A DNA stretch of 64,000 nucleotides from Branchiostoma lanceolatum (taxonomy: Eukaryota > Chordata > Leptocardii > Amphioxiformes > Branchiostomatidae). Below the pieces are notes generated by a model that saw only the letters and a program-made list of their open reading frames with translations, was not told where the DNA came from and made no database searches. Below, in pieces: positions 1,229 to 58,389 of this stretch (positions are counted from its first letter, which is position 1; each line of letters begins with the position of its first letter). The translations under genes and the position numbers were made by a program. The DNA is taken from positions 16,754,769 to 16,818,768 of the forward strand of contig NC_089727.1 in the NCBI RefSeq assembly GCF_035083965.1. Direction: 5' to 3'.

Positions 1229-3579
1229 TACCAAAGACCAAAACGACAATTCGAGACAGCTTCCTTAACTCATTTCTAACCGCTACGAGGCATGATTCCA
1301 AACGCTCTGAGGCATAATTCCAACCGCTCCGAGGCTTGATTCCAACAGCTCCGAGGCATTTCCTTACGCGCTGCGACAGTTTCCTTACGCGCTGCGACAG
1401 TTTCCTTACGCGCTGCGACTGAAATTTCCTTGCGCACTGCGACACAGTTTCCTTACGCGCTGCGACAGTTTCCTTACGCGCTGCGACAATTTCCTTACGC
1501 GCTGCGACAATTTCCTTACGCGCTGCGACTGAAATTTCCTTGCGCGCTGCGACACAGCGAAGACCCTTGCCCCCCACGCTCATACAGTGGACGATCCCAG
1601 GTGGGTCAGGGGTCACTACACCATTGGTGTTGTGAATGTGAACTGCGTCCTTCCCTAAAAGTACTGTATCAGGGTATTTTTTCATACAGGTAACATTACG
1701 ATGACGCGTTTAATGGTGCGCTACCATGGTGTTACGTGACCGTTCGACGTCACCGTGTGTCATATGTATTTACTGTTGCTACAACCGTGACAGTAATACG
1801 GACGGAACCGGCTTGGCTCTTTGTTTAAATTATGATATTAAAGTTCAAGAGACCCCAAACTTGACACTGTCAGTAGTACAGACTATTTATATAGATATAT
1901 CATATGAGTAGACGGTGTACTTGACGGGATCAGCAAGGGGGCATCCTTCTCGTACTTGCTAGCTCTTCTTTTATACATTGTGTATGGATTTTGTTTCTCT
2001 GTTATTTCAGATCCTCGACCTGAAATAAACTGACCTGTCTCGCAGGATAATCCTACCATGACAGAAGGTCAAGTTGGTCACGGTTTTTAGTCCTTTCAGC
2101 ATATCGCATGAGCTAGTGATGAAAGGTCATACATGGACAACAGACTACTAGTAACAGATTGCTCCTCTAGAGGTATAAGTATTGACTAATCCCGTTTGGA
2201 CATGATAGCATTTCCATAACATTACATTTTATTCATGGCCAGGGCTATTGACAGGATGTCCCTGTGAACAAGACTTTTGCATTATCGTTATGTTTTTGTC
2301 AATAAGAATTATTTGGCCACTATTAATATGATGTCCACGATCCTATCAGCCCTACCCTAACCCATTATATACAACCAGAACCATGAGTATGATCTTGTCA
2401 CATGGGGCAAGAAATAAGTAAACTTATTAGGGTGCTTCAAGTTTATTTGAACGGTGACATTACGATGACGCGTGACCTTTCGACATCTACGTTAAATCGC
2501 CGTGTGTTACACTTATAATCATCATCTCCAACTCCAAGCAGAGGTTTCGGTCTAGTAAGTAACGTTAGGAGTGTCCGGGATTTGTGACGTTCTCTCCCTT
2601 AACGTTAAAAATCCCGGACACTCATATAATCTACTCGACCGAAACCTCTGCTTTGAGAATATTACTGCGGTAACGAGGTCTCTATTCAACCGCCTTGGTT
2701 ACAGATATAGTTCATTTGCTGTGAGTAGTGAGTAGGCGTTGCACTTGGGATCGGAGGGGGCATAGTACCTCTAGGTCTACGAACTTTAAAATTTGGTTAC
2801 GTTCAGATGGTACGTTGGACTACTTAATTCTGATATGCTGTAGTTCTTTTCCTCTTACTATGTTTAAATGTGCATATTACACAACATTGTTTTGTGGTGA
2901 AAGCGTGTGTGTGGGGGGGGGGGGCTCTCAACGACAGGCAGATTTCTGGCGAGGTCAATGCCCACTATATATATTAAAGTTGGTCTTTCCCAAAGCGCCA
3001 TTTCACGCCGATCTACTGGCACGCGAGGGGAAAGAGAAGGAATATTTTACGCCCATTGTCCGTCAATTGTTATCAATGGCAATCATGGCTTCCTTTTAGT
3101 TTGTAGCAAGTGATTTAGAGATGGTGAGAGTCAGAACGAAGCACTGACACGATCTGACTGGCTGTTCACATTCACAACACAATGGTGTAGTGACCCCTGA
3201 CCCACCTGGGATCGTCCACTGTATGAGCGTGGGGGGCAAGGGTCTTCGCTGTGTCGCAGCGCGTAAGGAAACTGTGTCGCAGCGCGCAAGGAAATTTCAG
3301 TCGCAGCGCGTAAGGAAATTGTCGCAGCGCGTAAGGAAATTGTCGCAGCGCGTAAGGAAACTGTCGCAGCGCGTAAGGAAACTCTGTCGCAGCGCGCAAG
3401 GAAATTTCAGTCGCAGCGCGTAGAAAAAATGTCGCAGCGCGTAAGGAAATGCCTCGGAGCGGTTGGAATCATGCCTCGGAGCGGTTGGAATTATGCCTCG
3501 GAGCGTTTGGAATCATGCCTCGTAGCGGTTAGAAATGAGTTAAGGAAGCTGTCTCGAATTGTCGTTTTGGTCTTTGGTA
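1229..3579. mobile_element. Foldback-like element with about 415-bp inverted arms built of tandem repeats
   Basis: The arm at 1229-1643 is an inverted copy of 3164-3579. Each arm runs from a unique tip (TACCAAAGACC), through 3-4 copies of a roughly 21-bp unit (GAGGCATGATTCCAACCGCT), then about nine copies of a 20-bp unit (TTTCCTTACGCGCTGCGACA), to a unique inner part. The inner 1.5 kb holds a small hairpin (2537-2652) and no transposase-like ORF. Long inverted repeats made of subrepeats are the hallmark of foldback elements. CTAAC occurs next to both tips and may be its target duplication. The long open frames across the arms come from the repeats, not from genes. Confidence 0.75.
2537..2652. 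repeat. Short inverted-repeat element inside the foldback spacer
   Basis: AGCAGAGGTTTCGGT at the left end is inverted as ACCGAAACCTCTGCT at the right end. An inner pair, GAGTGTCCGGGATTT and AAATCCCGGACACTC, continues the hairpin. This looks like a small MITE nested in the foldback element. Confidence 0.6.
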
Positions 3580-3947
3580 TTTACCCTAACAGACTAACCG
3601 CGCCGGCTATAAGGAGAACATTTGCCGGGGGACTTTGGCCATGGAGCATATTTGACCCTCTCTCCGTAGCCGACTCCCTTCATACAATTGACTCTATTTG
3701 GCCAATTTCTACCATTTCCCCATCAGCGACCCGCGGAGGCTGGTAGAGCCTACTCTGAGCTGACGATAGGTGGCGGATGCCTTCTGAAAACTTCTCACCA
3801 GCTCTATTCGTCTTGTCGACTTGCGTAGCTCTATGTATCCATGTCTGTGTTCAAGCGTATTCTATTGTCATAGAAATAAAGGAAGACTACAGAAGTAACA
3901 CTTTTTGCTTTTCTCTTCAATAGAAAAAGCCAAAATGAAGTCAATCA

Positions 3948-4911: not shown

Positions 4912-5008
4912 AGTGCTCTTGTGTTACAAACTGTAATAATTTTGGTATCTGCTTATAGCACACATATTATGTAAACAATAACAGAACTATGAGATTCACC
5001 ACAGCAGC

Positions 5009-5495: not shown

Positions 5496-8400
5496 TCATG
5501 GGAAATCCATATCGTCATACGGAGCGCGCCCTCGGCCTCTACCGTTGTGTCGCCCCCTTTCGCCGCCTCGCCCCCCGCGACCGTTTCCACGACGTCGGCC
5601 CCAGGACTGAAACTCCGGATCCGCTGTTGCTTCTTCTTCTGAACTCTCGTCGCCATCCGAACTTTCGTCTTCTTCCGAACTCTCCTCCGAACTCTCCTCC
5701 GAACTCTCCTCCGACTCCGAACTCTCCTCCTCCTCCGAACTCTCCTCCTCCGAAGAACTATCCTCCTCCGAAGAACTTTCCTCTTCCGAACTCTCCTCTT
5801 CTTCCGAACTCTCGTCCTCCTCCTCCGAACTCGCGTATTCCTCCGAACTCTCGTCGTCTTCTTCTTCTTCCATAAAAGTGTCTTCAACTTCGAAATCCTC
5901 CTCGTCTTCATTTTCTCCTTCCTCTCCGACTTCTCCTAGACGCAGGGAGAGAGCAAGAGGAGCAACCGGCCCAAGCTCGGCACTACCCGGGACTGGGATT
6001 GGTTGGAGGATCTGGTAGTCATGACGACGTTGTGCCAGAGGTGCCCGGATGTTGCTGGACCTCAGAAGAACCCGACTGTCTGGAGGAAGCCTGCTGATTG
6101 GAGCGATGGGGCGTGACGGTTGGCGAACGACGGTGACGTCAGGTCGGATCTCCTCGACTGGTCGGATCGCGCTAACGTCGAGGTCAGCTGGCTTACCTGC
6201 AATAGGCAAATCAAAAATAGAAATTTGTAAAGGAAAAACGTTGCAGGTTACTGAAGCCATCTTTACAAACATGGTATGGACGGTCGTGGCGTTTTCTGGT
6301 GACGAATCATTTACATGTAGATGCTCTCTAAGCTGAGGTGTTCTGGAAGCCATATGACCTTTTTCTCATATGTTTCGTTTTCCTTCCGCCTTCCCAACCG
6401 GGAAAGAAAATTGGGCATATGAGAAAAAAGCTAAGGTCCCAATCTTTCCAAGCAACCTCTGCTTGGAGAGTACTTTTAGACACACAAGAACCAACACGAC
6501 ATCCGGAACACTTTATGATAATCAAAATCCGACATTACACGGAGGGTACCGAAAATTACCGAAGACGTACCGAACTTTGCGCGAAGAAACACGACGGCGT
6601 CGTCGATGACTCGGGACATGGCCGTGAAGCTGTCGGAGTAGAAGAGGTGCTCGGGGACGGGCTCGGAGACAATGTCGTGCAGCTCCTGCTCGTTCACGGA
6701 GGAGCCGACGGCGAAGGCGAAAATCTCACAGCCTGGACCTGAAAAGAACAAAAAGCCAATATTTGTAAATACACAGGATTTCTGAAGCACCGAGAACTGG
6801 AAGAGAAAACTGACGTCTGGCAACTGCGTCAGCAGTAAGCTAGACTCTACCAGCCTCTGCGGGTCGCTGGGAAAATAGTAGAAATTGGCCAAATAGAGTC
6901 AACTGTATGAAAGGGGTCGGCTATGGAGATAGGGTCCAATATTGCAACCCTAGTAACCCTAACTGCGGATAGGAATGTTATCCTCCATGGCCAAAGTCCC
7001 CAGGCAAATGTTCTCTCTATAGCCGACGCGGTTAGTCTGGTAGAGACTAGCAGTAAGCCTGGGTACCATTATATTATACTACCGGGGCTCCTACACTCGC
7101 TACCCTAAAAACGCGAGTGTAGGAGCTTCGGTAGTAATAGGATGGCACCCAAACTAACTGCGCCACTGACGTTCATTTACGTCTGAAACGTCTGACTGTT
7201 TCCAAAATGTATCCATTTCCTTTATTAAATTTTGCATTGTGTATCTCATTAACGTTACCTGGATGTCAAAACTACATTTATCTATTTATTTTGATTTGCC
7301 ACATTTTGTGGAAGGATTGACATAACAAGTGAACTATCACATTTTCAAGATGTCATCCCAGACCGGACTGTAAGATTTGGATCATCGCACACCGGGGCAT
7401 GCCCCTTCTCTTTTTCGAAAGGTGTGGTGGGTTCTTCAACGTGCGCGGGGTGTGGCTCTCCCCAAACACGGGACCTCCATTTAACGTCCTATCCGAGGGA
7501 CGTCCCTAACCCTAGATGAGCTAGGTACTCATTTACACTTGAGTGAAGTGAGGAAAGTCGTGTTAAGTGCCTTTCCTAAGGGCACAACGTCGGGGCGCAA
7601 GTTCGGACATGTCTCTGGGCACAACCCGGGATTAGATCCCGGGTCCCATTCAGTTTGACAGCCGCCCGCTCTACACTTGCGCCACATGACGCCACCATTT
7701 ATATTGATACATTTAATGTGACCTTGCACTACTAACCGTTGACAGAGTCCTTCAGTCCGTCGGCGGCAGGTACGGGGCTCCCTCCCGTGTTGGACTTCCC
7801 GTCCGTGATGAGGAAGAGTATCTTGGCGGCGGCAGGCCTGGATCCCGCCGTGGACACGAACACGTCATCCTTGGCCATGTTCAGGGCGACGGCGGTAGCC
7901 GTGGAACCACCTGTAGGAAGAATGGAAGGTTATTTTGCTAGCAGCTAAGGACACTGGGTTAAACATTCGGGCAGCAGAGGCTAGGGCAAAGGACAGGATT
8001 TCTTGGAGGATCCACCTGGAAAGCAAGGGGCCAGTTTCTGGCCTGTGCACGTAGGCAGGTAGGCAACCTGGCATATCAACAGTGCTGATTTTAGAAAAGT
8101 ATTATTGAGGATTAAAGTAAGTTTAACTCAGAAAACAATTGAGGTTTTGTATCTTTAATCGACGTTCTGACTTTCACAACATATGTCACGTGTCCATATC
8201 GTCACGTATTCAAAGTAATGGATCAGTTTTCCTGAAGAAGATCGCATTGGATAGAATATATATATCTACGCGGTTATCTCATAACAGAGGGGGATGTCCC
8301 TGTGGTGTAGTGGTCTGCGCTTCTGTTGAGTCATACCAAAGACGTTAAAAATGGTACATACTTCTGAAACAGTATGGAAGTTAAACACACTCCACTACCA

Positions 8401-25379: not shown

Positions 25380-25581
25380 TAGTCTCTACCAGACTAACCG
25401 CGTCGGCTATAGAGAGAACATTTGCCGGGGCACTTTGGCCATGAAGGATAACATTCCCATCCGCAGTTGCAAGGTTGCAATATTGGACCCTATCTCCATA
25501 GCCGACCCCCTTCATACAGTTGACTCTATTTGGCCAATTTCTACTATTTTCCCAGCGACCCGCAGAGGCTGGTAGAGTCTA
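25380..25581 (+). repeat. MITE, TAGNCTCTACCAG family
   Basis: Ends TAGTCTCTACCAG and CTGGTAGAGTCTA. The flanking 9-mers AAAAAGAAG and ACAAAGAAG match at 8 of 9 positions. Confidence 0.8.
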
Positions 25582-25706
25582 ACAAAGAAGTACACATTGA
25601 GACAGGTGATACATGTATATTGACATTTTCCCGTGCAATATCAAAATTTGTGCGAATTAGTGAGAGGTAGGCGTGTCACCGGGCCAGGGCTACAACTCGC
25701 CCTCAG

Positions 25707-26654
25707 TTACGGCAGGCGGAAACCTTCGTGGGTATTGCAATGGCAGACCTGGGGAGTGAATGAAAGCGGGGTTAATAATACGTTTAGAACCGGATATTTG
25801 GAACACTAGTGTAGAAACGTTTTCCAACATTACTTTGTGCTAGAAAGCCATAAGAACAAGACAAACGATCGCGGAAAAATCTACTTATGTTAACGGAGGA
25901 TCCAAGTTTACTAAGTGAAGAGGGCGGTTAGACAATTACTCTAGCGTAGTGGGGTTTTAACATCATGAAACAACAGGTAAGAATATATCTCACTGTATTT
26001 GTTAAATAAATGCTGTTTATTCTTGCCACTCTTACCCCTATGTTATCACAGTGTCCGCCTGGATATTCAGACGCGGAGCACAGAAAGGAACATAAGGTGG
26101 GGTCGATCACAGTCAGATGCATTCAGATCGCGGGTTCTACAAGAACAGCAGAACACAGTCACATAAGAGCATTGTGACTGATAGCGTAAGACGCTAGATT
26201 AATATATGTTATATCTATAGCTTGACAAAATAGAATTTAAAAAAAGACAATTGGATTTAAGGTTTGTTTTCTCTAAAAGGCCCCGTTTTAGACATCTTAG
26301 ATATGGATGTATTTCAAGACAAGTTTAAACTTCTACTTACATGCGCGGCGACTGCTCGATCTTGGCCTTGAACTTCGGAAAGGTCTGGTTGTAGAATTAG
26401 TTTTAAAAACGTAACTCATACACTTTTTTTTGGGCCAGAAGTTCAAACTGTGAAAAAACAACAACTTTACATTGACCATATTGGCGAACTTCACAGTTGA
26501 TACCAACGTTGTAAACGTGACGAAGCCAAACATATACCAGGGCCTACATTGCATACATCTATCATATTTGAAGATCAAGGAGATCCGCATGTTAACAACT
26601 TGCCTCAGTGGTGCCCAGAACGGTCAGCACAATCGCAAAGACGAGCAACTTCAT
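25707..26654 (-). pseudogene. CSalpha-beta defensin-like gene copy B, frameshifted
   Basis: Four exons in the layout of the intact copy at 28604-29844: signal peptide 26604-26654, pro-segment 26341-26384, cysteine exon 26036-26136, last exon 25707-25748 ending in a stop. Exon 1 ends at the same GC donor (GCAAGT) as the other copy. Exon 3 is 101 nt here and 109 nt there, so its frame does not carry through. The first Cys is in one frame, and Cys 2-4 (C-x3-C-x9-C) are in another. The last exon keeps a C-x-C (VCHC). The AATAAA seen after the intact copy is changed here. It is probably a pseudogene, though a base error cannot be ruled out. Confidence 0.75.
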
Positions 26655-26943: not shown

Positions 26944-27150
26944 AGGTCCACATCGAGAAAGGTACATTAGTGATACACGAACATTTCTTCACGTGTTATC
27001 AAATTTGTGCGAGTTAGTTTTTGTTGATGTGTCGGCGCGTCACCGCAGTGCCCGGGCAAAGTGGACAGCTTGTCCTGGGTTCTTTTTCGTCAGACAACTT
27101 CTCCGAGAGAAATATTAATATCGATAAGTGACTGCAATGGTAGATGTGTT
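26944..27150 (-). pseudogene. Defensin-like copy C, relic of last exon and 3' UTR
   Basis: The 3' UTR block around CTAACTCGCACAAATTTGATA aligns with those after copies A and B. Upstream of it, the last-exon counterpart has lost the first Cys codon of the C-x-C pair. No other exon follows before copy A's flank, so most of this copy is gone. Confidence 0.6.
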
Positions 27151-27995: not shown

Positions 27996-28389
27996 TGTAA
28001 CAGTGGGGGTTCAAGCGCCTCCAACTGACCAGGCTAACTGGTCGCGACCTTTTAGCGTAGTGGTTAAGGCGTTGCCGTGCGGATCGGAGTTCGGGGCTCG
28101 AATCCCGGGAGCGGCGTACTCGTCCCTTTGATTTGTTTCACTGGTTCCCACACCGGCCCTGTGAGCCTGGCAAACGTGTGCCACACAGGGAAGATCGAAC
28201 TCGGAGATTCGAGGACGAATCTTAAAAAGAAAAGGGGGAGTAGTGTAACAGTGGGGGTTCAAGCGCCTCCAACTGACCAGGCTAACTGGTCGCGACCTTT
28301 TAGCGTAGTGGTTAAGGCGTTGCCGTGCGGATCGGGAGTTCGGGGCTCGAATCCCGGGAGCGGCGTACTCGTCCCTTTGATTTGTTTCA
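27996..28389 (+). mobile_element. Miniature LTR element (TRIM-like) with tRNA-like LTRs
   Basis: Two direct repeats, 27996-28140 (145 bp) and 28244-28389 (146 bp), differ by one inserted G. Each starts TGTAACAG and ends TTTGTTTCA, the TG...CA of LTRs. The 4-bp duplication CAGC flanks the pair (27992-27995 and 28390-28393). A TGGTTCCCACACCGGCC starts one base after the left LTR, where a primer binding site belongs. A polypurine run, AAAAAGAAAAGGGGGAG, sits just before the right LTR. The inner part is only about 103 bp and has no ORF. Each LTR holds an A-box-like TAGCGTAGTGGTTAAGGCG and a B-box-like GGCTCGAATCC, spaced as in a tRNA. Confidence 0.8.
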
Positions 28390-28500: not shown

Positions 28501-28506
28501 TTTATT
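28501..28506 (-). terminator. Polyadenylation signal of defensin-like gene A
   Basis: AATAAA on the minus strand, about 98 nt after the stop codon. The matching positions in copies B and C are mutated, so only this copy keeps it. Confidence 0.6.
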
Positions 28507-28603: not shown

Positions 28604-29844
28604 TTAGCCAGTGGTGATGGGCCTGTAGCAATAGCATGTCTGTGGGTGAATGGAAAAAAATAATGTTTCGTTTAGAACAAGTGGTTAGATTGTGATACTT
28701 GAGTTATACTGGTTATCCACCATTACTTTGTGTCGAAAAGGCATAACAACTAAGCAAGACTGGGGATTGTTAAAATCAAGGAGACCACATGTACAGCACA
28801 GGTTGGCCGACGTTAGTAGGATTGATGAAACGATGGATAACAAGTAAGAAGGTTTTTCACTCGACTTGTTGAATGAATAAGACATTAGCGGTTGATTTCT
28901 ATCATTCTTACCCCAAGGCCGTCACACTGTCCCTCCCAATACCCAAAGTTATTGCAGTGAGTCATACACGCCGCCGAGTTGTAGTGAGTGTGGTCACCAT
29001 GGATAGCCGCAGGGCAGATGCTACAGGAACGGCAAAGCACAAAAAAGGAGATATCGGTAGATGTCGGTAACATCATAACGCAACCCCTGCCCAGCACGCT
29101 CACCAGACGACTGATATGACATTCTTTTCTAGTTTGTTTGTTTATTTCTTTGTTTGTTTGTTTGTTTGTTTTATTTAGATCTCCATTAGTGATATACAAT
29201 ATGAATATGTAGCCTCTACCAGTCTCCGCGGGTCGCTGGGAAAATAGTAGAAATTGGCCAAATAGAGTCAACTGTATGAAGGGGGTCGGCTACGGAGAGA
29301 GGGTCCAATAGGCAACCCTAGACTGCGGATGGGAATGTTATCCTCCATGGCCAAAGTCCCCTGGCAAATGTTCTCTCTATAGCCGACACGATTAGTCTGG
29401 TAGAGACTATACAATATGCACTATTCTATTATTTACAAGACGGTTCACGTCGCTTTGTTTGTCAGAGTCTGCAGCTTCGAATTCTTCAGCAGATAAAATA
29501 TAACCGTTATACATGTATGGTCGACCGGTCTTGGATGTGCTAGTAGTTTAATCTTGTACTTACAAGTGTGGCGCCGGCTCAATCTCAATTTTGGGTTTGG
29601 ACTTCGGAATGGCCTGGTGGAAAAATAGAAGAAACATGCTTTCTTGGTACTCGGAACCCAGACATGTGAAATAAACTTTGAATTGACCAGAGCGGGGCAC
29701 TCCACAGTTGATGCCAACGAAAAAAAGAAGTCGGTTACTACGCCTATACAAAACGATTAGAAGTCGATCAGGGAGACATGTGAAGGAACTTGCCTGAGTG
29801 GTGGCCAGAACTGTCAGCGCAATCGCAACGATGAGCAACTTCAT
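28604..29844 (-). CDS. CSalpha-beta (invertebrate-type) defensin precursor, copy A
   Basis: Four exons, minus strand: 29794-29844, 29564-29613, 28912-29020, 28604-28639; 246 nt, 81 residues, consistent phases. Residues 1-17 are a signal peptide. Residues 18-33 are a short charged, Pro-containing pro-segment. The mature part has six Cys: C36, C52, C56, C66, C72, C74. The spacing C-x15-C-x3-C-x9-C-x5-C-x-C, with Gly two residues before the fourth Cys, is the layout of arthropod and mollusc defensins. These peptides are secreted and usually act on bacterial membranes or cell-wall precursors. Intron 1 uses a GC donor (AG|GCAAGT). The last exon is very short (11 codons). No in-frame stop or frameshift is seen, and a polyA signal is present. 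Family membership rests on Cys pattern and gene layout; activity is inferred. Confidence 0.8.
29118..29172. repeat. (TTTG)n-rich simple repeat
   Basis: A run of TTTG units in intron 2 of defensin-like gene A. Confidence 0.9.
29210..29409 (-). repeat. MITE, TAGNCTCTACCAG family, in intron 2 of the defensin gene
   Basis: Ends TAGCCTCTACCAG and CTGGTAGAGACTA, with the body matching 6841-7049. The intact defensin copy carries this insertion; copy B has none at the same place. Confidence 0.8.
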
Positions 29845-29922
29845 GGTTATAAGAACTTCTGAAATGTTCTTTGTACGTCGTCAGTAAAGCCGTCTGTAGT
29901 GGTTAGCTGAGATAGATGCGTG

Positions 29923-29975
29923 TTTTTATGCCTTTTGCTTGGGAAAGGTTGAATATGGTCCGGAATGAACATTAT
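29923..29975 (-). promoter_or_regulatory. Core promoter of defensin-like gene A, with duplicated upstream block
   Basis: Minus strand: a TATA-like CATAAAAA (29923-29930) lies about 80 nt before the start codon. Upstream of it is the block read on the plus strand as CTTTTGCTTGGGAAAGGTT. The block is kept near 26733 (copy B) and 31762 (promoter relic). It contains GGGAAAGG, half of a Rel-type site at most. Confidence 0.5.
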
Positions 29976-30204
29976 ATGATAACACAATACATATTTACAG
30001 AGGCTACTTTTAAACCAGTTGTTTACCAAAACAGTGGCTTTGAAGTTACCGACCAACCGTCATTGCCAGCTGTGTATGATTTACACTATTGCCGTGTGTG
30101 ACAAGATATCCAGATACAATCTTAAGAGGACCAATTTAACTATCAATCTTATAAGTGCCATCCTGACTGATTGAATCAATAATTCAGAATGTGTATCTCA
30201 TCAA

Positions 30205-30860
30205 GCCCTTGTTACACATCCAGGCCCTTCAACCGACCTTACCCCGACCACTAGCCAACCAGTTTTAGGCCACACCTATCTTTTAGCGACAACCATGTCC
30301 CAACCATTCTACAACCATTTCACAACCAGCTGTCCATGACTTGGTCCCAACCGGGCTCTGAATGCTTTCTAACCTATAGCTACTCCCAACCATCCCGACC
30401 TCTTGCCGCAAACAGCTGCCGACTCCCTCCTGACTGATTCTCAACCCATTGCCAACTCTCTCACGAATTAAGCGATGTTAAAAGATGACCATTTCCGCTT
30501 TTATTCAAACATTATCGAGAGCTCAGATAAGGATCACACATAGTTTCAATACGGCATTCTTTTGTATTTTTGGTTCAAGGTCGGGGTTGTTTGGCACACT
30601 TACTGGTAGTAGTCACCTTGGTTGGGAAGGAGTAGGCAGAAACTTGGTGAGTCAGGTTGCATGGGAACTAGTTGGGAGCAAACTTTGACTCCGACCACTG
30701 CTGACTTATATCCCATGGAACCACCAGCTAACCAGTCCCCTACCCTTTCCCAACCTTTTCCAGACCTCCCGTTCACTCCGGAATGTTTTAAACATATTGA
30801 AACGCGCCGACCAACTGCCAAACACAGCTGACTTTGCTCCTAACCATGGTTGGGGAAAGC
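30205..30860. repeat. CCAACC-rich degenerate repeat in opposing orientations
   Basis: 30240-30475 is rich in CCAACC and CGACC motifs, and 30600-30700 in GGTTGGGA. Similar blocks sit at 31860-32000 and 32155-32200. The start CCCTTGTTACACATCCAGGCC resembles the sequence at 18487 and 31870, which suggests decayed copies of one element. No gene is recognised from 29.98 to 33.88 kb. Confidence 0.5.
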
Positions 30861-31439: not shown

Positions 31440-31850
31440 ATGTACGTTTAGTGTTAACAACCGATAAAGGTTGAGCAAATATGGATCCAAATAAAGCCCT
31501 CCAAGCGTCAGGCCACGGAAGCACATATATCGCAGTTCACGATTACATATCAACGACTGTTCCGAATCAAGGACATTATATAGTCCGAATCAACAGGACA
31601 GGGGAAGGTTCGAATGTCACCTTATCGATTTATGTATCATGTAAGACTGCTTGGGAACATAATCATCTGTTGAAATTACATGTATACAATTTTCGAGAAA
31701 TGTATTTTTAGATACAGTAAAAGCCCTGTCGATTCATCTGTAACAATGGCGAATATCTCCCTTTTGCTTGGGAAATGTTGAATATCGGCCAGAATTAACG
31801 TTGTATGATTACACATTATATATTAACAGAACCTGATTTTGAAACACGTG
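31440..31850 (-). pseudogene. Remnant of a third defensin-locus unit (flank and promoter only)
   Basis: 31450-31720 matches the downstream flanks of the other units at 24790-25060 and 27570-27860 (shared GAATGTCACCTTATCG and flanking words). It is followed at once by the conserved promoter block (31757-31810). The coding exons that should lie between are missing. Confidence 0.6.
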
Positions 31851-32439: not shown

Positions 32440-32610
32440 TATATCTCTGTAACGGTACTGTACAGGACTGTATGTATGGTCAGGAGAGGTCTCCTGTAAC
32501 GTGAGTACTGTACAGAACTGTATGTATGGTCAGGAGAGGTCTCCTGTAATGTGAGTACTGTACAGGACTGTATGTATGGTCAGGAGAGGTCTCCTGTAAT
32601 GTGGGTACTT
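32440..32610. repeat. Minisatellite, 50-bp unit, short array (three copies)
   Basis: Same unit as the main array at 33158-33905. It is flanked by a direct duplication of about 83 bp (32358-32440 and 32608-32690, TTTCCGTGTTTAATCACATA). Confidence 0.85.
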
Positions 32611-32901: not shown

Positions 32902-33157
32902 CATACCTACTTGCCTAGCCACTAAGGGTTATTTTTCTGAAATCAGAAATGTCTCAAAGCTAAGGCAACACCATAACAATAGAACATCTGGTAATTATCA
33001 TCATAACTATCATCTACAAAAACAGAACAGAACATATTTACAAGTGAAGTATTCTTTTGAGTTGTGGTTAAAGGATAATTTATCATATCTAGTTTCAGAA
33101 TATCCAGAGTTATGTACGGATAGGTGAGTTCAATTTTCTATGCAGAGCCTTGTGACT

Positions 33158-33905
33158 ACTGTACAGGACTATATGTATGGTCAGGAGAGGTCTCCTGTAA
33201 TGCGAGTACTGTACAGGACTGTATGTATGGTCAGGAGAGGTCTCCTGTAATGTGGGTACTGTACAGGACTGTATGTATGGTCAGGAGAGGTCTCCTGTAA
33301 TGTGGGTACGGTACAGGACTGTATGTATGATAAAGAGAGGTCTCCTGCAATGTGAGTACTGTACAGGACTGTATGTATGGTCAGGAGAGGTCTCCTGTAA
33401 TGTGGGTACTGTACAGGACTGTATGTATGGTCAGGAGAGGTCTCCTGTAATGTGGATACTGTACAGGACTGTATGTATGGTCAGGAGAGGTCTCCTGTAA
33501 TGTGGGTACTGTACAGGACTGTATGTATGGTCAGGAGAGGTCTCCTGTAATGTGGGTACTGTACAGGACTGTATGTATGGTCAGGACAGGTCTCCTGTAA
33601 TGTGGGTACTGTACAGGACTGTATGTATGGTCAGGAGAGGTCTCCTGTAATGTGAGTACTGTACAGGACTGTATGTATGGTCAGGAGAGGTCTCCTGTAA
33701 TGTGAGTACTGTACAGGACTGTATGTATGGTCAGGAGAGGTCTCCTGTAATGTGGGTACGGTACAGGACTGTATGTATGGTCAGGAGAGGTCTCCTGTAA
33801 TGTGGGTACTGTACAGGACTGTATGTATGGTCAGGAGAGGTCTCCTGTAATGTGGGTACTGTACAGGACTGTATGTATGGTCAGGAGAGGTATGACAGTC
33901 TTCTG
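33158..33905. repeat. Minisatellite, 50-bp unit, about 15 copies, overlapping the CABLES stop codon
   Basis: Units begin GTACTGTACAGGACTGTATG and hold the inverted pair AGGAGA...TCTCCT. The last, diverged unit runs into the CABLES terminal exon. The gene's TGGTCAGGAGAGG and TCTGTAATGTGGGTAC (plus strand) match the unit, with 8 nt more between them in the gene. The array therefore appears to be derived from the CABLES 3' end. Open frames in it change frame each unit and are not genes. It is not a CRISPR array: there are no variable spacers. Confidence 0.95.
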
Positions 33906-45626: not shown

Positions 45627-45714
45627 TCTTTGCTGTGGTAAGAATGTAAAAACAAACACAACATCCGTTTCACACATGACCACCTCCGTACCTATGTAGT
45701 GATATGAACCGAAC

Positions 45715-46932
45715 ATGGGCGACACGAATGGACACGTAAACGCTCGTAGCTGCTTCTTCTTTTCCCTGGGTATTTCGATATGTCTGACATTCCTGTTCAT
45801 TCTGTTTACCAACCGGCTTTGGACAAACCTGGAGACGTCCAGGTTTCGGGCTGTGACCAAAATGTCACGGCCAGATTTGATGACAACCGATCGTCATGAT
45901 GTGAGCCCGTCTCTGCCTGTCCTTGACCGCCAAGTGACGGCCTCAGCGTCGCCGCTGTCCACCGAAGATTGGAAAAACGAATCGTCGCCTTCCGTTCCAG
46001 ATCTTCCCAATCGAGAAGAGAAAACACCGATGCCGACAGAGAAGCCGACAGAGCTAGAGTCCTCACCAACACCGTACCTGTACCTACCCGCTTGTGATCA
46101 CTGTGGACTGGGAACTACATTGTTTCAGTACGCTTCCGCTTATGGCGTAGCAAAAAGCAACAATATGGGATTATTGCTCAATCCTTCCTTTAGGTTGTTG
46201 AAGGTTTTCGGTCAGCTAGACTTTGATGGAACCATGTTAGAGCAAGCCGTGAATTCATCGGGATTTAAGGTGTTTGAGGAGAAAAACGTACGAGTCTACC
46301 ACCCCGAGTTAGAGTCGCTAGGTCAAGGTCAACAGAACTGGACTCTGGGCGCAAGTCGGCTCCAGTCTTTTAAGTATTTTCAGAACTACGGGAACGACAT
46401 AAGAAGGCAGTTTACCTTTAACGAAGGCGTTAAACCTAAGGCTGACTCGTTTTTGAAGCAAGCAGCAAGCCAAGGTAGGGGCGTCGCTTCAAACTCGTCC
46501 GTCCCAGGATTGTTTGTTGGTGTTCACGTTCGCAGACGCGGACGCGGACTAACGGAGGGGTACGACTACCTACTGGGTAACCGAGTCGTAGGGGATTGGT
46601 ACCTCACACAGGCTATGTCTTATTACCGGGAAAAGTACGGAAACGTCACTTTTATCGTCTGCAGCGACGATATGGAGTGGTGCAAGTCGCACATAGCAAC
46701 GGAGACACACGACGTGTTTTTTTCGGAAGGGCGCGCGGCGGTGGAAGATCTGGCCATCTTGGCTTCCTGCAATCATACCGTGATGACGCTAGGAGCGTTC
46801 GGGTGGTGGGGTGGGTGGCTTGCCGGCGGAGAGGTTGTGTTCTACCGTGACTGGTACGTCAAGGGGTCCAACGTGGACGCACACTTGAAGGTAGAAGACT
46901 ACATGCTCCCCGCGTGGAAAGGAATGGCTTAA
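45715..46932 (+). CDS. GT11 (alpha-1,2-type) fucosyltransferase-like protein
   Basis: An intronless gene of 405 residues. Residues 12-36 are a single hydrophobic anchor after a short cytosolic tail, so it is a type II Golgi protein. A Ser/Pro/Thr-rich stem runs to about residue 115, followed by the catalytic domain. GT11 signs include LFQYASAYG near the start of the domain, HVRRR at 271-275, CSDDMEWC, and NHTVMTLGAFGWWGGWLAGG at 353-372. Members move L-fucose from GDP-fucose to the 2-position of galactose. In most members the first motif is HxRRxD; here the Asp position is taken by Gly/Arg, so catalysis may differ. Several N-glycosylation sites are present (NES, NSS, NWT, NVT, NHT). The exact acceptor cannot be told. 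Confidence 0.85.
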   Translation: MGDTNGHVNARSCFFFSLGISICLTFLFILFTNRLWTNLETSRFRAVTKMSRPDLMTTDRHDVSPSLPVLDRQVTASASPLSTEDWKNESSPSVPDLPNREEKTPMPTEKPTELESSPTPYLYLPACDHCGLGTTLFQYASAYGVAKSNNMGLLLNPSFRLLKVFGQLDFDGTMLEQAVNSSGFKVFEEKNVRVYHPELESLGQGQQNWTLGASRLQSFKYFQNYGNDIRRQFTFNEGVKPKADSFLKQAASQGRGVASNSSVPGLFVGVHVRRRGRGLTEGYDYLLGNRVVGDWYLTQAMSYYREKYGNVTFIVCSDDMEWCKSHIATETHDVFFSEGRAAVEDLAILASCNHTVMTLGAFGWWGGWLAGGEVVFYRDWYVKGSNVDAHLKVEDYMLPAWKGMA

Positions 46933-57824: not shown

Positions 57825-57991
57825 TAGTCTCTACCAGACTAACTACGCCAGCTATAGGGAGAATATTTACCGGGGTTTCACTTGCAGGCATATTGGACCC
57901 TCTCTCCGTAGCCGACTCCCTTCATACAATTCACTCTCTTTGGCCAATTTCTACTATTTTCCCAGCGATCCGCGGAGGCTGGTAGAGGCTA
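57825..57991 (+). repeat. MITE, TAGNCTCTACCAG family, with perfect 9-bp duplication
   Basis: TAGTCTCTACCAG ... CTGGTAGAGGCTA flanked by CCATATGCA on both sides (57816-57824 and 57992-58000). It is shorter than other copies because the middle is deleted. Confidence 0.85.
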
Positions 57992-58389
57992 CCATATGCA
58001 TCTGTTGACAAACAAGTAACACTGTACCGACGCTACTGAGAATTTGGTTACAGTCGACTTCAAATAAATTCTGACACAATATGTGCGTGGAGCTAAATCA
58101 TACCCTATTAGGTGGTCAATGCTCTACTGGTATCTACATCTTGCTAGACCACCGCCGCTTTACCACCAGGATTGGTGATTTTTTACGTACATTCCTCCGA
58201 GCAGCTTGTGGTTACAATGTCAGCCAACGTTTATACAACATGCCCACCGCTGTCAGGTATCACACAGGCGAGTATTTATAAAGTCCCACAGGTATTTCCT
58301 GCCACGGGCACCTCGTGTTTATACACAACAGGTGGGAAAGGCATTAGTACACACTTGTTCTTTACCGTACAAGGTATTCACAACAACCG

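Follow-up and report, generated by a model that had tools for sequence, protein, structure and literature searches.

Does the locus at positions 28604-29844 on the minus strand of a 64,000-nucleotide stretch of the Branchiostoma lanceolatum genome (hereafter "the window", i.e. the whole stretch of DNA analysed) contain a genuine defensin gene of the insect type, and in what state are this gene and its surroundings? We conclude with high confidence that the locus, termed here gene 1, encodes an intact animal CSalpha-beta (cis-)defensin of the classical insect/mollusc type in a lancelet, and that it belongs to a small tandem array, which also includes a frame-broken copy and an orphan promoter.

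Exon-intron structure of gene 1

Gene 1 comprises four exons on the minus strand, which total 246 nt and join in frame into a precursor of 81 residues followed by a stop codon; all of them lie where the original prediction had placed them. Exon 1 (29794-29844, 51 nt) carries the start codon and a putative signal peptide (MKLLIVAIALTVLATTQ), and the hydrophobic N-terminal start of the precursor (MKLLIVAIALTVLATTQA) can be recognized by eye. Exon 2 (29564-29613, 50 nt), which ends in phase 2, encodes a linker or pro-segment (AIPKSKPKIEIEPAPH(F)). The segment originally described as a "pro-segment" (AIPKSKPKIEIEPAPHF) is present, but inspection by eye reveals no dibasic cleavage site in it. Exon 3 (28912-29020, 109 nt) encodes the defensin domain from Cys1 to Cys4 and ends in phase 0, directly before the donor sequence GTAAGA. 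Exon 4 (28604-28639, 36 nt) encodes TCYCYRPITTG and the stop codon, i.e. Cys5 and Cys6 within the 11 residues that had been predicted for the last exon, and it has a counterpart in the second copy of the gene (copy 2, see below). The cysteine spacing of gene 1 is C-x15-C-x3-C-x9-C-x5-C-x-C, with the fourth Cys within a G-Q-C motif, and thus both the predicted intervals of 15, 3, 9, 5 and 1 residues and the predicted G-x-C at this position are confirmed.

The three introns of gene 1 have lengths of 180, 543 and 272 nt and phases 0, 2 and 0, respectively, the phase-0 intron 3 being located between Cys4 and Cys5. Introns 2 and 3 are of the GT-AG type (donors GTAAGT and GTAAGA). Intron 1 is of the GC-AG type, a feature not mentioned in the original prediction; its donor (CAG/GCAAGT) conforms to the consensus apart from the GC, and this type of intron 1 is common to both defensin copies (positions 29793 and 26603, minus strand). 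An AATAAA polyadenylation-type signal (28501-28506, minus strand) is located about 100 nt 3' of the stop codon. On the opposite side, the upstream (promoter) block (29845-30050, minus strand) contains a TATA-like box (CATAAAAA, read by eye), and 149 of its 194 aligned bases are kept in copy 2.

We also considered a longer protein that would result from read-through of intron 1, as the 180-nt intron 1 is free of stops and links exons 1 and 2 in a single open frame. We rejected this variant as a product of chance, because copy 2 carries several stops at the same place.

Assignment to the CSalpha-beta defensin family

A search with the Defensin_2 profile, suggested as a check of the proposed CSalpha-beta defensin family, bears out the assignment. 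The Pfam family PF01097 (Defensin_2, named arthropod defensin) matches the 47-residue domain with a score of 24.7 bits and the entire precursor with 22.9 bits, at a gathering cut-off of 20.4. Four Pfam families are listed at E-values up to 10, among which Defensin_2 is the best and the only one above its cut-off, while Gamma-thionin, Defensin (PF24552) and Scorpion_toxin_alpha-beta each remain below their own, e.g. 15.4 bits versus 27 for the Scorpion toxin alpha-beta family (PF14866). Neither big-defensin nor beta-defensin models occur among these four families, although the HMMER filters drop most weak matches. The C-x3-C and C-x-C spacing of gene 1 is of the cis-defensin type, and the trans-defensin spacing is not found. 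Among the NCBIfam models only actinodefensin was reported, with 14.7 bits versus the required 65.

The profile comparison is also informative about the last splice junction. If the frame of exon 3 is simply continued in place of the splice to exon 4, Defensin_2 drops to 17.4 bits for the continued exons 1-3 and to 16.6 bits for the plain open frame. PF24552 then takes the lead with 19.7 and 18.9 bits, respectively, below its cut-off of 27. Because of this drop, the splice to the 11-codon exon 4 can be said to improve the Defensin_2 match.

Searches against PDB chains at E-values up to 10 listed 13 sequences, of which 10 are defensins by name, counting BmKDfsin3, sapecin and lucifensin as defensins. 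The best match is insect defensin A (1ica, E = 0.1), which displays spacing identical to gene 1 from Cys2 to Cys6, with the G-x-C motif in register. Both this protein and sapecin (1l4v) share with gene 1 the C-x3-C-x9-C-x5-C-x-C framework and the N-x-x-A-C sequence at the helix start, and the G-x-C motif is in register in both alignments. The PDB matches alone are not significant, given the best E-value of 0.1 and the presence of a crystallin-domain protein among the 13. The structure predicted for exon 3 alone, i.e. for a fragment devoid of the last strand, Cys5 and Cys6, has a mean pLDDT of 65.2, with helices at residues 10-14, 16-25 and 29-32 and no strands.

We formulated a gene-model pattern (C-x3-C-x(7-8)-G-x-C, a phase-0 GT[AG]AG donor, an AG within 1 kb, C-x-C and a stop), which matches the window twice, in gene 1 and in copy 2, and has no match in 100 second-order Markov windows. 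The first part of the pattern alone (from C-x3-C to G-x-C) has 3 matches in the window, compared to a random mean of 0.38. The pattern is not blind, since it was written after the gene had been seen, and copy 2 and the Pfam score are stronger arguments than this post-hoc statistic. The Defensin_2 score above the gathering level and the framework repeated in copy 2 support the classification of the predicted peptide as a CSalpha-beta (invertebrate-type) defensin.

A tandem copy and remnants of further copies

We found a tandem duplicate of gene 1, absent from the original prediction, at positions 26654-25707 of the minus strand. This copy 2 agrees with gene 1 in the order of exons, in the phases of introns 1 and 2 and in the GC donor of intron 1, and its introns 2 and 3 have the same donors as those of gene 1 (GTAAGT and GTAAGA). 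Its exon 1 (26604-26654, MKLLVFAIVLTVLGTTE) is followed by the GC donor GAG/GCAAGT and is identical to exon 1 of gene 1 in 45 of 51 bases. Exon 2 (26341-26384, 44 nt) ends in phase 2 with the donor CAT/GTAAGT, and 33 of 44 aligned bases are the same as in gene 1. Exon 3 (26036-26136) has a stop in all three frames, and therefore no frame leads from exon 2 through the core; its 3' part nevertheless reads CSFLCSASEYPGGHCDNIG (C-x3-C-x9-C). Exon 4 (25707-25748) encodes VCHCNTHEGFRLP and a stop. From the second Cys on, the spacing of copy 2 is C-x3-C-x9-C-x5-C-x-C, the same as in gene 1, and intron 3 is again in phase 0 when read in the frame of the cysteine core. The 3' half of copy 2 scores 19.2 bits with Defensin_2, slightly below the cut-off. 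We found neither AATAAA nor ATTAAA in the 211-base stretch at its 3' end (25500-25710). Barring an assembly error at this place, copy 2 looks like a pseudogene, so that the description of the defensin as "intact" holds for gene 1 and fails for its neighbor.

Traces of further duplication are visible on the same strand. A third copy of the defensin upstream block (31697-31846, minus strand), with 71.5% identity over 158 aligned columns, is located upstream of gene 1, and a core around TTTCCCARGCAAAAGG appears, by eye, to be common to all three copies of this block. No convincing defensin exon follows the orphan block according to a tblastn search of the whole window with the precursor (E-values up to 10) and to sequence inspection. 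A stray copy of the 3' flank of gene 1 (26968-27022, minus strand; 86% over 58 aligned columns) lies upstream of copy 2. Since copy 2 is broken and is accompanied by an orphan promoter block and a stray 3' flank, the locus can be described as a small tandem array in decay, in which only gene 1 is intact.

Two other tblastn matches were dismissed. One, at 30129-30227 on the other strand, is weak (E = 8.4), has an internal stop and is not convincing as an exon. The other, at 4917-4946 (SCVTNCNNFG), was considered as a candidate third copy; as judged by eye, it runs into a stop three residues on and lies at the margin of a long inverted repeat.

Divergence between gene 1 and copy 2

The two copies differ unevenly along their length. 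The identity amounts to 0.77 over the 200 upstream bases, to 0.88 for exon 1 and to 0.75 for exon 2, and introns 1 and 3 retain 0.59 and 0.61, compared to 0.44 and 0.43 for shuffled sequences. Exons 3 and 4, with 0.45 and 0.47 versus 0.43 and 0.45 for shuffled sequences, are at the random level, and so are the first 80 bases of intron 2 (0.42 versus 0.45). In the Cys2-Cys6 region, all 15 bases of the five cysteine codons are identical, whereas the 18 non-cysteine codons agree in only 23 of 54 bases and encode the same residue in 4 of 18 cases. For the same region we obtained dN of 0.61 and dS of 1.09, i.e. a ratio below 1, from 23 codons and with one copy broken. Exon 1 exhibits five non-synonymous codon differences and one synonymous, and hence no sign of purifying selection, which says little with one of the copies broken.

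A leader and promoter that are kept, together with a mature peptide rewritten around fixed cysteines, are usual in defence peptides. Positive selection on the mature peptide is at best suggested by these data, and little can be made of the divergence pattern, because the beginning of intron 2 is also at the random level, dN/dS is below 1 and copy 2 is broken.

Charge and predicted mode of action

At pH 7, with cysteines counted as free, the 47-residue domain has a calculated charge of -1.95 and the 64-residue form one of -0.82; the predicted mature peptide is thus not cationic. A cationic mature peptide is usual, though not universal, among CSalpha-beta defensins. The 47-residue domain contains four histidines, located about where the helix region begins.

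By analogy with the family, the four exons of gene 1 would be spliced into one message, and the signal peptide would direct the precursor out of the cell. The six cysteines would then pair 1-4, 2-5 and 3-6, as in insect defensins, and lock the helix onto the beta-hairpin, and the secreted peptide would presumably act against microbes in the gut or body fluids. For this peptide, simple lysis of membranes driven by charge is less assured at neutral pH than for cationic defensins, because it is near-neutral or slightly acidic and has four histidines; binding of a cell-wall precursor or a pH-dependent action is possible.

Alternative interpretations

The exons of gene 1 are tiny (51, 50, 109 and 36 nt), and one could ask whether unrelated short open frames have been assembled here by chance. 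We regard the probability of this as practically nil: the Pfam score exceeds the cut-off, the gene-model pattern, albeit devised post hoc, is found in none of the 100 random windows, and the existence of a tandem copy with the same architecture in practice already refutes chance. A different concern is that gene 1 might itself be a decaying or unexpressed copy, which has stayed open by happenstance, as could be expected in the vicinity of a broken copy 2 and of a third promoter without a convincing gene, and as the rarer GC donor of intron 1 might also indicate. That donor, however, occurs in gene 1 and copy 2 alike and departs from the consensus only in the GC, and gene 1 has its splice sites, reading frame, cysteines and polyadenylation-type signal all intact, so we consider such decay improbable.

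Another explanation accepts the CSalpha-beta scaffold but not the membrane-active antimicrobial role, which would have been lost as the secreted peptide evolved rapidly towards a different target (an ion channel, a protease, neutralization of a toxin, or a metal- or pH-dependent role). The net charge of about -1 to -2 at pH 7 and the four histidines are in line with it, and so are the scarcity of identities in the non-cysteine codons between Cys2 and Cys6 (23/54 bases) next to the invariant cysteine codons (15/15), the lower identity of exons 3 and 4 (45-47%) than of introns 1 and 3 (59-61%), and the match to the scorpion toxin model, which is below the cut-off of that model. The dN/dS ratio below 1 in the very same region (0.61 and 1.09, from 23 codons with one copy broken) points in the other direction, the 5' end of intron 2 differs between the copies as much as the exons do, and Defensin_2 is the top-scoring family; we therefore think that a change of target has only a modest chance of being the case. 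A broader scenario would be a rapidly changing tandem array of insect-type defensins maintained in a chordate, with leader and promoter held and the mature peptide rewritten outside the cysteines, the near-neutral, histidine-rich product of which has shifted from plain cationic membrane lysis to a pH- or metal-dependent or non-microbial role; this scenario strikes us as doubtful and its chance as small. The reading we prefer is that of an intact insect/mollusc-type defensin gene within a decaying array.

Genomic context

The remainder of the window contains genes of ordinary animal type, which encode a Tmemb_185A-type membrane protein (presumably TMEM60-like), a mitochondrial carrier, a RING-finger protein and a family 11 glycosyltransferase, the last one as a single long frame at 45703-46929 of the plus strand (glycosyl transferase family 11, 114.6 bits). 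Four of the ten open frames of the window that were scanned have no Pfam match at E-values up to 0.01.

Repetitive sequences of several kinds are interspersed with these genes. A dispersed repeat of about 200 bp occupies positions 29210-29409 within intron 2 of gene 1; near copies are found at 6841-7049 (90%) and 25380-25581 (92%), the latter just downstream of copy 2, and weaker or partial copies at 3586-3753 and 57888-58001. Two near-identical tRNA-like (SINE-like) stretches (28040-28120 and 28290-28370) contain, as judged by eye, A-box- and B-box-like sequence. ARAGORN reports no tRNA genes in the window, and there is no Rfam match at the gathering level in the window. A satellite with a 50-bp unit forms arrays at 33157-33891 (14.7 copies) and 32455-32609 (3.1 copies), with 96% matches. 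Two arrays of a 21-bp repeat, of 9 copies each and in opposite orientation, are located at 1358-1554 and 3252-3450, and more than one of their reading frames is open over a long distance.

Relationship to known defensins

The original prediction treated an insect-type defensin in a cephalochordate as a surprise, but the presence of such proteins is already in print (PMC4165938, PMC11116330). The former article (2014) reports recognizable defensin orthologues in Branchiostoma floridae, for which it refers to a cDNA resource and to Zhu et al. 2014; the legend of its Figure 5 includes B. floridae among representative animal defensins, and its section 4 describes a phase-0 c-loop intron in the defensins of this species and 5'-biased introns in invertebrate defensins. 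The latter (2024) states that insect defensins exist in amphioxus, also citing Zhu et al. 2014. If the c-loop is taken, in our own reading, as the loop between Cys4 and Cys5, the phase-0 c-loop intron of the B. floridae CSalpha-beta defensins (PMC4165938), which belong to the same family and were compared by description, corresponds to intron 3 of gene 1. Insect-type defensins in lancelets are thus already known, and gene 1 is a member of a known family, not a new type.

This family may nevertheless be little noticed in lancelets, because a review of antimicrobial peptides of marine origin from 2023 names, in the excerpts of its section on cephalochordates, only big defensin, mBjAMP1 and RPS23. 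Likewise, the main text of a survey of the CSalpha-beta superfamily (PMC5116183) has no word on lancelets or chordates, and excerpts of PMC2866484 mention, with respect to amphioxus, only phenoloxidase. The lancelet big defensins described in excerpts of PMC7203481 represent a different family: according to the same kind of partial text, the amphioxus big defensin, a trans-defensin that shares with gene 1 the name and the occurrence in a lancelet, has another cysteine pairing, a hydrophobic N-terminal domain and a coding region spread over two exons.

The defensins (MGD) and mytilins of mussels are also CSalpha-beta peptides of marine animals, and the mytilin genes, as described in excerpts of PMC7168163, have four exons and three introns, i.e. 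the same number of exons as gene 1. The literature searched, partly in excerpts, yielded no intron positions of mussel or oyster defensins for comparison, only the exon count of mytilin. Judging from the title of a cited reference, MGD-1 has four disulfide bonds and therefore eight cysteines, in contrast to the six of the gene 1 peptide, and mytilin precursors, in the excerpted descriptions, have an anionic C-terminal extension, unlike gene 1.

With respect to classical insect-type defensins, the peptide encoded by gene 1 differs in being near-neutral or acidic and in having a histidine-rich first loop and an aromatic/proline tail. Its first loop is also longer than in those proteins. Gene 1 provides a clean instance of an insect-type defensin in the chordate line, complete in its exon-intron organization and accompanied by a tandem duplicate in decay; trans-defensins (big defensins) have also been reported from lancelets. 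The locus makes it possible to test whether the two kinds of defensins are used side by side in these animals, as well as how small tandem genes are born, diversify and are lost.
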